Shown: piece after piece, positions 1-14,284 of the stretch
How positions within the stretch are numbered: position 1 is the stretch's first letter
Layout of the letters: the number at the start of each line of letters is the position of its first letter
Origin: Pseudomonas linyingensis
GTDB taxonomy: Bacteria; Pseudomonadota; Gammaproteobacteria; Pseudomonadales; Pseudomonadaceae
Assembly (NCBI RefSeq): GCF_900109175.1
Contig: NZ_FNZE01000001.1
Coordinates: forward strand, 124,001-188,000
Reading direction: 5' to 3'
DNA length: 64,000 nucleotides
Translations under genes and position numbers: made by a program
The notes under the pieces: model-generated
The model's database searches: none
Told to the model about the DNA's origin: nothing
Seen by the model: only the letters and a program-made list of their open reading frames with translations

Positions 1-1594
1 CGTCGTTCTGCAGGTCGACGAATTGCTTCGGTGCACGGGAGGTGGACTTCTCGTGGGGCACCTGGAACAGCGCAACCGCAGCTTCTTCCTTGCGTTTCTC
101 GGTTTTCGGCATGCTGCCTTCGACCACTTTGCAGCCTGCTCCCGCAGCGGCTTTGGCACCGGCTTCGAAGCCGTCCGCCAGGACATCGCCCAGGCCGAAT
201 ACGCCATTCACGGCACCGGCGCAGTGGCGCTTCTGGAAGCCTTCGCCGGGGATGAAGGCGAGGATGTCTTCACGCCAGGTCGGCTTGCCGCCCAGGTGCG
301 ACGCCAGGTGCACCACCGGACTGTAGCCGCCGGAGCTGACGATCAGGTCGCACTCGACCAGTTCTCCGGAGCTGGTGACCTTGTGGTTCTTCAGGTCGAT
401 GGCGCAGATGCGGGCACCGCTGACGCGCTTGTTGCCACGGGCTTCGACCACGGCGCTGCCCGTAAGGACGCGCACGCCACGGGCACGGGCCTCTTCCACC
501 CAGGCACCACGCGGGTTGCTGCGGGCATCGGCCACGGCCACCACCTGCTGGCCGGCATCCAGCCAGTCCAGCACTACGCGGTAGGCGTAGTCGTTGTTGG
601 TGGACAGCACCAGTTGGCGGCCGGGGGCCACGCCGTAGCGGTTCACGTAGGTGGAGACGGCGCCGGCGAGCATGTTGCCGGGTAGGTCGTTGTTCGAATA
701 CACCAGCGGACGCTCGTGGGCGCCGGCGGCCAGTACCACGCGCTTGGCGCGGACGCGATGGACGCGATGACGGGCCTGGCCACGGGGCGCGATCTCGCCC
801 AGGTGGTCGGTCAGGCGCTGGTGGATGGTGAGGAAGTTGTGGTCGTGATAGCCGTTCACGGTAGCGCGCGGCAGCAGGGTCACTTCCGGCATTTTTTCCA
901 GCTCGGCGATGACCTTGGCCACCCACTCGGTAGCGGGCTTGCCGTCCAGGGTTTCGCGGGTGTCCAGCAGGCTGCCGCCGAACTCTTCCTGTTCGTCGGC
1001 CAGAATCACGCGGGCACCGCTGCGGCCAGCGACCAGGGCAGCGGCCAGGCCAGCCGGGCCGGCGCCGATCACCAGCACGTCGCAGTGCTGGTTCAGGTGG
1101 TCGTAGATGTCCGGGTCGACCTCGAGGGGCGCACGGCCGAGACCGGCGGCCTTGCGGATGTACTTCTCATAGGTCAGCCACAGGTTCTGCGGATACATGA
1201 AGGTCTTGTAGTAGAACCCAGGCGGCATCATGCCGCCGCCGACCTTGCCGAGGATGCCCATGACATCGTTCTTCACGTTCGGCCAGCCGTTGGTGCTGCT
1301 GGCCACCAGGCCGGCGTACAGCGCCTGCTGGGTGGCGCGCACGTTGGGCACCTGGGCGGACTCGGTGGAGCCGATCTGCAGGACTGCGTTGGGCTCCTCC
1401 GCACCGGCTGCGACGATGCCGCGCGGACGGGAGTACTTGAAGCTGCGGCCGACGATGTCGACGCCGTTGGCCAGCAGGGCTGCGGCCAGGGTGTCACCGG
1501 CGAAGCCCTGGTAGTTCTCGCCGTTGAAGGTGAAGGTCAGCGGTTGGCTGCGATCGACGCGGCCACCCTTGGGAAGACGGTTGACCTGGCTCAT
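1..1594 (-). CDS. soxA: Sarcosine oxidase alpha subunit, N-terminal half (runs off window)
   Basis: Large subunit of heterotetrameric sarcosine oxidase, which oxidatively demethylates sarcosine to glycine and passes the methyl group to tetrahydrofolate. The reading frame starts MSQVNRLPKGGRVDRS at 1594 and stays open to base 1. That gives about 531 residues of a family that is usually near 1000, so the C-terminal aminomethyltransferase-like half lies outside. A dinucleotide-binding stretch (GPAGLAAALVAGRSGARVILADE, coded around 1000-1070) is visible, as expected for the NAD-binding part of the alpha subunit. The start codon overlaps the soxD stop (ATGA), so the two are translationally coupled. 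The gene belongs to the glyA-soxB-soxD-soxA operon, and soxG should follow beyond the window. Truncation is only by the window edge. Confidence 0.95.
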   Translation of the reverse strand, partial: MSQVNRLPKGGRVDRSQPLTFTFNGENYQGFAGDTLAAALLANGVDIVGRSFKYSRPRGIVAAGAEEPNAVLQIGSTESAQVPNVRATQQALYAGLVASSTNGWPNVKNDVMGILGKVGGGMMPPGFYYKTFMYPQNLWLTYEKYIRKAAGLGRAPLEVDPDIYDHLNQHCDVLVIGAGPAGLAAALVAGRSGARVILADEQEEFGGSLLDTRETLDGKPATEWVAKVIAELEKMPEVTLLPRATVNGYHDHNFLTIHQRLTDHLGEIAPRGQARHRVHRVRAKRVVLAAGAHERPLVYSNNDLPGNMLAGAVSTYVNRYGVAPGRQLVLSTNNDYAYRVVLDWLDAGQQVVAVADARSNPRGAWVEEARARGVRVLTGSAVVEARGNKRVSGARICAIDLKNHKVTSSGELVECDLIVSSGGYSPVVHLASHLGGKPTWREDILAFIPGEGFQKRHCAGAVNGVFGLGDVLADGFEAGAKAAAGAGCKVVEGSMPKTEKRKEEAAVALFQVPHEKSTSRAPKQFVDLQND

Positions 1595-1917
1595 GCCGTT
1601 ACTCCTGCGGTCGTGGCTTTCTTCTCGCCGACGGTGGCCTCGGTGACGGTGGGTTTCTCACCGATCCTGTAGGTTTCGAGGATTTCGTAGCTCACGGTGT
1701 GGCGCGTGGCGTTGAAGTACTTGCGGCAACCGGCGGCGTGCACCCACAGCTCGTGGTGGATGCCGCGTGGGTTGTCGCGGAAGAAGATGTAGTCGCCCCA
1801 CTCCTCGTCGGTGCAGGCATTCGGCTCCAGGGGGCGGGGGATGTGCGCCTGACCCTTGGCATGGAATTCCTCTTCGGAGCGCAGCTCGCCGCAGTGGGGG
1901 CAGAAGATGTGCAACAT
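1591..1917 (-). CDS. soxD: Sarcosine oxidase delta subunit
   Basis: Small zinc-binding subunit of heterotetrameric sarcosine oxidase, 108 residues and full length for the family. The N-terminus carries C6-x-H-C9 and a later H60-x3-C64, the Cys/His pattern that holds the structural zinc in characterised enzymes. The last 20 residues are low-complexity, which is normal. The stop overlaps the soxA start by ATGA, and the gap to soxB upstream is 11 bases, so this is a tight operon. The start at 1917 is preceded by a purine-rich AAGGAGA on the minus strand. It is expected to act in the cytoplasm with soxA, soxB and soxG. Confidence 0.95.
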   Translation of the reverse strand: MLHIFCPHCGELRSEEEFHAKGQAHIPRPLEPNACTDEEWGDYIFFRDNPRGIHHELWVHAAGCRKYFNATRHTVSYEILETYRIGEKPTVTEATVGEKKATTAGVTA

Positions 1918-1928
1918 GGCGGGTCTCC

Positions 1929-12876: not shown

Positions 12877-12907
12877 GGGGCGGTTCTCCTGAACAGGGGC
12901 GCGGGCA

Positions 12908-14284
12908 TCAACACTCGATGGCGCTGACCGCCAGGCCGCCGCGCGAAGTCTCCTTGTACTTGTCGTGCATGTCGGCACCGGTGTCACGCATGGTGCGGAT
13001 AACCCGATCCAGCGAGATGAAGTGCTCGCCGTCGCCGCGCAAGGCCATCTGCGCGGCGTTGATCGCCTTCACTGCGGCGATGGCGTTGCGTTCGATGCAC
13101 GGTATCTGCACCAGCCCGCCGACCGGGTCGCAGGTCAGCCCGAGATTGTGCTCCAGGCCGATCTCGGCGGCGTTTTCCAGCTGTCCCGGGGTGGCGCCGA
13201 GCACCTCGGCGAGACCGGCCGCGGCCATCGCGCAGGCCGAACCGACCTCGCCCTGGCAGCCGACCTCGGCACCGGAGATCGATGCGTTCTTCTTGCACAG
13301 GACGCCCACTGCCGCTGCAGCGAGCAGGTAGTTGACCACGTCGTCCTCGCACGCCTCGGGGTTGAAACGCATGTAGTAATGCAGCACCGCCGGGATGATC
13401 CCGGCCGCGCCGTTGGTGGGCGCGGTGACCATGCGCCCGCCAGCGGCGTTCTCCTCGTTGACCGCCAGGGCGTAAAGGTTGACCCACTCCATCGCCGACA
13501 GGGTCGAGCCGATCACGTTGGGCTTGCCAATCTCCTGCAGGCTGCGGTGCAGGCGCGCGGCGCGGCGCAGTACCTTGAGGCCGCCGGGGAGCAGACCCTC
13601 GTGCTTGAGGCCGTTGGCCACGCACTCCTGCATCACGCTCCACAGCTTGAGCAGGCCGGTGCGGATCTCGGCCTCGCTGCGCCAGACCTTCTCGTTGGCC
13701 AGCATCAGTTCGGAAACGCGCAGTCCGTGCTGGCGGCACAGCCGCAGCAGTTCGTCGGCGCTGGAGAAGTTGTAGGGCAGCACCGACTGGTCCCGGTCGA
13801 GCTGGCCGGCGGTGGCCTGCTCGGCATCGACCACGAAGCCGCCGCCCACCGAGTAGTAGGTGTCCTGGCGCAGTTCGCGGTCCTCGCCCCAGGCGATCAG
13901 GGTCATGGCGTTGGGATGGTAGGGCAGGTTCTCGTCGAGCAGGCGCATGTCGCGCGCCCAGTCGAAGGGCACCGGCTGCTGGCCGCCGAGCATCAGCTCG
14001 CCGGAGGCGAGCAGTTCGTCGATGCGCGGGGCGATGCTGGCCGGATCGATGAGGTCGGGCCATTCGCCCATCAGGCCCATGATCACCGCGCGGTCGCTGC
14101 CGTGGCCGACGCCGGTGGCTGACAGCGAGCCGTACAGGCGCACCTCGACGCGGGTGATGCGCTCAAGCAGGCGGCGCTCGCGCAGGGCGCCAACGAACAG
14201 GGCGGCGGCGCGCATGGGGCCGACGGTATGCGAGCTGGACGGGCCGATACCGATCTTGAACAGGTCGAACACGCTGATGGCCAT
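12908..14284 (-). CDS. sdaA: L-serine dehydratase (iron-sulfur, single-chain)
   Basis: Deaminates L-serine to pyruvate and ammonia using a [4Fe-4S] cluster; 458 residues, standard for the single-polypeptide type. The cluster cysteines are visible at 343 (EVGCQGE), 385 (LTCDPVGG) and 396 (QIPCIERN). The protein ends at Cys458. In the Legionella homologue a C-terminal cysteine is the fourth iron ligand, so the same 'tail-in-mouth' arrangement is likely. The N-terminal SSSHTVGP motif is conserved. The start at 14284 follows AAGGAGTCC. Placement next to the creatinine and sarcosine genes suggests it completes the route glycine, serine, pyruvate. Confidence 0.95.

Follow-up and report, generated by a model that had tools for sequence, protein, structure and literature searches.

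Bacterial breakdown of creatinine is well understood at the level of enzymes, and each reaction leading from it through creatine, sarcosine, glycine, and serine to pyruvate is textbook knowledge for the families concerned. The creatininase and creatinase of Pseudomonas putida have solved structures (PDB entries 1j2t and 1chm), while P. aeruginosa and its relatives carry a glyA1-soxBDAG gene set that serves as a glycine betaine/sarcosine tail. Here, we analyzed 64,000 nucleotides of Pseudomonas linyingensis (assembly GCF_900109175.1, contig NZ_FNZE01000001.1, positions 124,001 to 188,000 of the forward strand), referred to below as the window. The genome comprises 4.72 Mb (4,721,122 bases) in 43 contigs, and its nearest named relative among the genomes searched is Pseudomonas sagittaria JCM 18195 (CrnA, 99% identity; dnaB, 96%). 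The left end of the window holds the same enzymes (94% identical) and the same chemistry as P. putida creatinine catabolism, with the difference that crnA and creA share one island with a complete sarcosine-to-pyruvate tail. This region is probably a horizontally assembled catabolic island that encodes a creatinine-to-pyruvate route under two-layer control. The enzymes and the route are already known; what is added is an inserted, mosaic package with a sharply defined candidate operator.

The predicted enzyme identities are strongly supported by family models and structural relatives. Creatininase, crnA (window positions 7695..8471, minus strand), scored 379 bits against TIGR04448 (cut-off, 235), and its product is identical to 1j2t at 243/258 residues. 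Creatinase, creA (10323..11534, minus), encodes PF00557 and PF01321 domains and a protein identical to 1chm at 377 of the 401 aligned residues (E value, 3.5e-264); no creatinase model came up in the NCBIfam scan of CreA. Each protein is thus 94% identical to the solved P. putida enzyme. All four sarcosine oxidase subunits exceeded their curated cut-offs: soxB, beta subunit (1929..3179, minus; TIGR01373, 755.5 bits; cut-off, 529); soxD, delta subunit (1591..1917, minus; TIGR01374, 129.6 bits; cut-off, 116.5; cysteines 6, 9, 35, and 64); soxA, alpha subunit (2..1594, minus; TIGR01372, 1572 bits at full length; cut-off, 1164); and soxG (TIGR01375, 174 bits; cut-off, 144). The window codes for the first 531 of the 1005 SoxA amino acids, and the remaining part runs off its left edge (locus L002, 13577-16594). 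To the left of the window lie soxG (L002, 12955-13584) and purU (L002, 11969-12826; TIGR00655, 287 bits; cut-off, 286). Both soxA and soxD were scored with proper gene ends; truncated frames gave scores under the cut-off. The tail is completed by serine hydroxymethyltransferase, glyA (3286..4539, minus; NF000586, 660 bits; cut-off, 335), and an iron-sulfur L-serine ammonia-lyase, sdaA (12908..14284, minus; TIGR00720, 699 bits; cut-off, 345).

Read from right to left on the minus strand, the gene order is sdaA, reg2, creA, an MHS symporter gene (mhs), crnA, and an NCS1 permease gene (ncs1). Past the permease come reg1 on the plus strand and then glyA, soxB, soxD, and soxA on the minus strand; soxG, purU, and a plus-strand gene that we label ygiQ lie beyond the window. 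Counting soxG and purU, the module spans about 17.7 kb. The regulators reg1 (5009..6022, plus) and reg2 (11875..12876, minus; directly downstream of sdaA) both combine PF12833 with PF01965, the GATase1-AraC architecture. No tRNA was found in the window. An initial annotation, made from the sequence alone, had placed the named genes within 14.3 kb, and all were recovered within positions 1-14,284, every one on the minus strand except the first regulator. Its two importers and two regulators stood at the family level (NCS1-type and MHS/MFS; GATase1-AraC) and at nothing finer. It had also reported key enzyme residues at known positions; these are in register in CrnA (E34, H36, D45, H120, E122, and H178), CreA (R64, H232, E262, R335, and E358), GlyA (TTTTHKT), and SdaA (C343, C385, and C396), presumably serving metal binding or catalysis. 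The annotation had called glyA dedicated and placed it and sdaA at the ends. The genome contains two PF00464 (serine hydroxymethyltransferase) matches, the island glyA among them, and a single PF03313 (SDH_alpha) match, the island sdaA; thus, glyA may be a dedicated copy, while sdaA, the only serine dehydratase found, is not a spare one.

In the proposed route, the NCS1 and MHS permeases would import creatinine and creatine, CrnA would hydrolyze creatinine to creatine, and CreA would split creatine into urea and sarcosine. SoxBDAG would then oxidize sarcosine to glycine, yielding H2O2 and, with tetrahydrofolate (THF), 5,10-methylene-THF. GlyA would condense glycine and 5,10-methylene-THF to serine, freeing THF, and SdaA would convert serine to pyruvate and ammonia. 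PurU may release THF upon formyl-THF buildup, and a urease encoded outside the island (one urease alpha match in the genome) could consume the urea. The net balance would be creatinine + O2 + 3 H2O -> pyruvate + urea + NH3 + H2O2. THF-dependent sarcosine oxidase produces one glycine and one methylene-THF per turnover. This output matches the GlyA input 1:1, and the three sarcosine carbons can thus exit as pyruvate without glycine cleavage. The proposal that these genes jointly convert creatinine to pyruvate is supported in three ways: each step has an intact gene from the appropriate family, the linkage recurs, and the stoichiometry fits. Flux through the route, the pairing of regulators with sites, and the transport substrates are what we infer beyond this.

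The same genes could instead scavenge nitrogen, with creatinine and creatine supplying urea (via urease) and ammonia and the entry of pyruvate carbon being incidental. Such a role would agree with the urease gene in the genome and has a parallel in Corynebacterium glutamicum ATCC 14067, which takes nitrogen but not carbon from creatine and creatinine, a restriction that its authors tied to an inability to reuse glycine (PMC8864220). Here, however, glyA and sdaA, the steps that consume glycine and serine, belong to the island, and the crnA-creA-sox-glyA linkage recurs in other genomes. We therefore regard nitrogen scavenging as an unlikely, if serious, competitor to a route that delivers carbon to pyruvate.

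A second alternative holds that sox-glyA-sdaA is ordinary glycine betaine machinery to which crnA-creA is merely adjacent. In P. fluorescens HK44, glyA lies upstream of soxB within 20 kb of genes for putative DgcA and GbcA; a putative CdhR is encoded in the same region. Both island regulators also resemble GbdR, scoring 386.6 (reg1) and 386.9 (reg2) bits against NF052371. That model has a cut-off of 480 bits, and a GbdR identity was rejected for both; the protein taken for CdhR scored 334.7 bits. No regulator in the genome exceeded the GbdR cut-off, in a scan that included no verified GbdR for positive control. With the putative HK44 proteins as queries, the best GbcA relative in the window's genome by E value was 30% identical across the Rieske domain only (residues 37-225), a further candidate reached 24% over 397 residues, and the best DgcA relative among all six Oxidored_FMN loci found reached 33% over 555 residues. 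NCBIfam models applied to the Rieske and flavin oxidoreductases of the genome (six candidates) returned no glycine betaine enzyme. Since these searches turned up no close relative of GbcA or DgcA, glycine betaine probably does not supply the tail through its known pathway in this organism, and we consider simple adjacency improbable. Judged by gene content, the tail is probably fed by creatinine and creatine here.

Control of the creatinine head appears to center on a 36-bp element, a probable operator, that occurs on the minus strand upstream of creA (11621..11656) and upstream of crnA-ncs1 (8597..8632), matching 30/30 consensus positions at both sites; the best score elsewhere in the window was 18/30. 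Allowing up to three mismatches, its 26-base core matched these two sites and no others in the 4,721,122 bases of the genome, and the reversed pattern gave none; this count is less exposed to circularity than the comparisons below, though the pattern was drawn from the same two sites. For comparison, we searched contigs with CrnA and kept the best 80 of 110 relatives, of which Pseudomonas/Stutzerimonas contributed 45 and other groups 35. Each locus reached at most 10 kb per side, and many were ended by contig ends, making all linkage counts lower bounds. A 28-position consensus scored 25 to 28 in all 41 Pseudomonas creA upstream regions, always facing creA, as opposed to 14 to 18 in the 28/28 non-Pseudomonas regions and at most 20 in 820 shuffles of the Pseudomonas regions; these conservation figures are descriptive, the consensus having been built partly from the scored sequences. 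One side observation concerns Pseudomonas borbori (L016), in which crnA is flanked by two creA copies, each preceded by the element.

Related but distinct elements precede the tail genes. Upstream of glyA, GTTTGAGCATTTTCACGTCGCAAATAGGCAAA (4747..4778, minus) matches 29/29 scored positions, and all 18 loci compared (L004-L019, L045, and L072) match 23 to 29 of these 29 positions, the consensus having been taken from the alignment of the upstream regions. Upstream of sdaA, GGACACTTTCGCGTCGAACCTGGACAGTTG (14345..14374, minus) shows GGACA, on inspection by eye, as a 21-bp direct repeat; across 10 aligned sdaA upstream regions, GTCGA is invariant and is followed by [GA]ACA. Both are probable GATase1-AraC-type sites. 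The creA/crnA, glyA, and sdaA elements have a GTCG core in common and, by eye, a 21-bp periodicity. In these respects, they resemble the sites of the GATase1-AraC regulators CdhR, GbdR, SouR, and ArgR, described as GGTCGC half-sites with a 15-bp spacer (PMC5806209). A literal GGTCGC-N15-GGTCGC scan was discarded: its matches were mostly intragenic, with none at 11/12 in the island promoters, and the shared element emerged from intergenic comparison instead.

The best candidate to bind the 36-bp element is reg1. A relative (at least 60% identity) is present in 44/45 Pseudomonas loci, and the reg1 clade contains 44 proteins (43 from the loci and one from the window; support, 0.96). The second regulator falls in a separate clade with 14 close members (13 from the loci). 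A wider circle of 31 proteins (support, 0.887) also takes in 14 counterparts from the fluorescens group, along with those from L012, L023, and L060. Given a reg1 clade that stands genus-wide beside the creA element and narrower reg2 clades, we infer that the element belongs to reg1, of which it is probably the operator. Binding by reg2 or another regulator, or a conserved leader RNA in place of an operator, would also suit an element situated in a leader or promoter region; reg2 adjoins creA too, and in the fluorescens group a diverged relative holds that place. Set against this are the range of reg1, compared with 13 loci for the close reg2 clade and 30 for the wider one; the likeness of the GTCG core to the GATase1-AraC sites described above (PMC5806209); and the finding of no Rfam family at threshold in the window. 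We judge this explanation unlikely and retain reg1 as the probable partner of the element.

By position, we call reg1 CahR-like, after the CahR reportedly described in 2022 from P. putida KT2440. According to the C. glutamicum report, P. putida KT2440 is without creatine genes (PMC8864220), so that this attribution of CahR may be wrong in detail. A transcriptome paper on P. fragi (PMC7921472) is listed as naming both creatininase and creatinase. Among the matches listed, we recognized no paper that deals with a creatine regulator of Pseudomonas or with the cluster described here. Control of the island is probably layered: the 36-bp element, likely bound by reg1, would act on creA and on crnA-ncs1, which together form the entry module, while the related, distinct elements before glyA and sdaA would govern the sarcosine-to-pyruvate tail. 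With different control elements in its two halves, one route need not be one regulon.

Linkage of sdaA and glyA with crnA-creA, for which the initial annotation had proposed a comparative test, does recur. Of the 45 Pseudomonas/Stutzerimonas loci, 15 combine crnA, creA, soxB, and glyA, and 12 of these 15 also contain sdaA, at least in part; creA and sdaA occur together in 20. In the other groups, crnA, creA, and soxB are joined in 10/35 loci and accompanied by glyA in 4/35 (Oricola L076, Marinobacter L078, Amphritea L082, and the actinobacterium Paeniglutamicibacter L083), two of which (L076 and L078) contain sdaA as well. Occurrence in Pseudomonas and in distant genera indicates that the linkage arose or traveled more than once. 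The majority of sampled crnA-creA loci are without visible full linkage, and creA was not seen within reach in 4/45 Pseudomonas loci.

The 3' end of ygiQ served as the insertion site of the island. Beyond sdaA, on the side away from ygiQ, the right boundary is marked by a short stretch (14676..14823, plus) left over from the 3' end of the native ygiQ. Two segments of it, 118 bp at 91% identity and 38 bp at 84%, align with the ygiQ 3' end at the opposite edge. The remnant and the DNA that follows it align with the ygiQ-nadb gap of four congeners. In a search of the insertion site, 56 genomes yielded 30 loci, 8 from genomes of the same genus (its own included) and 22 from beyond it. In the window's genome and one other (G010), purU follows ygiQ, whereas nadb directly follows ygiQ, with no island, in 4/6 island-free congeners (G007, G008, G009, and G011); in the window, nadb also follows beyond the remnant. 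No probe gene adjoins ygiQ at the 22 loci beyond the genus. Together, the ygiQ-nadb junction of the congeners and the alignment of the remnant place the insertion within this genus. The native right flank (15405-17281) comprises a gene for an NAD-binding protein (15405-16052), a small putative lrgA (16203-16568), and an LrgB-family gene (16565-17281).

The two halves of the island also differ in their closest relatives. DNA from soxG to soxB is 89 to 96% identical to P. resinovorans-group loci (L009 and L007), as opposed to 77 to 90% to Stutzerimonas TS44. From crnA to creA, identity is 91 to 96% to TS44 and 85 to 93% to L009 and L007, except in a single largely intergenic segment, where the values are 86% and 67%, respectively. 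At the gene level, soxA is 93% identical to P. resinovorans and mhs 95% identical to TS44, compared with a dnaB baseline of 83 to 84% for P. resinovorans-group genomes and 86% for TS44. Each half therefore exceeds the baseline with a different partner, which marks the island as a mosaic. The G+C content is 66.0% in window bases 1-14676 versus 68.7% to the right of the remnant. Local duplication could have produced the flanking ygiQ repeat without any insertion of foreign DNA, the two copies being similar and in direct orientation; no integrase was noticed in the open reading frame lists of the island, although no family search aimed at integrases was made. Four congeners, however, have ygiQ and then nadb directly, and soxA and mhs are closer to distant species than dnaB is (84% and 86%), which makes duplication improbable next to insertion. 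More tentatively, the tail may in this lineage have been detached from glycine betaine and a creatinine head added to it by stepwise horizontal assembly at ygiQ, the head keeping a genus-wide 36-bp operator and the tail its own related operators; two paralogous GATase1-AraC regulators would then share one three-carbon salvage route in series.

Several observations weigh against this account of the island and its control. Upstream of crnA, a score of 24/28 was reached in just 25/45 Pseudomonas regions, and of these 25 elements, 9 face crnA and 16 face away toward another gene; the operator claim is thus backed by a smaller set of loci for crnA than for creA. The 36-bp element was absent before glyA (17 regions; maximum, 20/28), before sdaA (0/10 regions; maximum, 21/28; 10 cut sdaA copies set aside), and before mhs (28 regions; maximum, 17/28), and so the island need not be a single regulon. 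In 26/41 Pseudomonas creA loci, no soxB was seen within reach, from which it follows that creatinine use does not require the linkage. In two of the six island-free congeners (G005 and G006), the roughly 1.5 kb that follow ygiQ contain no purU and no nadb. Finally, the operons could serve external creatine or sarcosine instead of creatinine.

Both transporters fall short of the cut-offs of their TIGR models. The NCS1-type permease (6196..7590, minus; PF02133) scored 139.6 bits against TIGR00800 (cut-off, 353) and is a probable creatinine importer; the MHS-family MFS symporter (8639..9979, minus) scored 418 bits against TIGR00883 (cut-off, 443), has relatives of at least 60% identity in 28/45 Pseudomonas loci, and is a probable creatine/creatinine importer. 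Other loci have different transporters. In L011 (5996-9949) and L023 (5859-9850), the 36-bp element is found not directly before crnA but before an ABC importer operon that ends at crnA, and in L014 (3763-7832) such an operon, also behind the element, ends beside creA; the importer proteins were checked against Pfam in L011 and judged by the likeness of their first residues in L014 and L023. Past crnA, the NCS1 permease is replaced by BCCT and SSF transporters in L014 (10857-14178) and by an amino acid permease in L011 (10843-12252). Importers thus seem to be exchanged while the 36-bp element stays. At the 16 loci where the element faces away from crnA (within L020-L044), the divergent gene may share the regulon.

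A further observation concerns sdaA. Nine related contigs (L005-L010, L012, L015, and L016) terminate inside this gene at the start of the locus. Short 3' pieces (45-139 amino acids) are 94 to 98% identical to the window copy, longer pieces 85 to 90%, and full genes 79 to 85%; the full sdaA of P. sagittaria is 97% identical. Either a repeated sdaA 3' end (a second copy) breaks these assemblies, or the C terminus is well conserved.

Creatinine is a major nitrogenous waste product in vertebrates, and the island would constitute a compact package for growth on it, with its one-carbon chemistry balanced. Its 36-bp element offers a ready operator prediction for creatine/creatinine regulators across Pseudomonas and could aid the building of creatinine sensors. 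With the enzymes and the route established, the surprise is modest: the biochemistry is ordinary, and the regulatory prediction is useful. The P. aeruginosa-type tail, seen here in the glyA-soxBDA genes of P. fluorescens HK44, has the same gene order as the island (glyA, 86% identical; soxB, 91%), whereas the island has a crnA-creA head and its genome yielded no close match to GbcA or DgcA. In the P. fluorescens and P. putida groups, crnA/creA loci likewise have a reg1 relative nearby and the same 36-bp element before creA, but they differ in gene arrangement, and some are missing mhs. The AmtR-controlled creT-crnA, cshA, and hyuB genes of C. glutamicum also provide for creatinine and creatine use with a linked transporter, one that resembles an MFS transporter beside the P. 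putida creatinase; in contrast to the island, that system provides nitrogen only, employs other enzymes after creatine, and is governed by a TetR-family repressor (PMC8864220).

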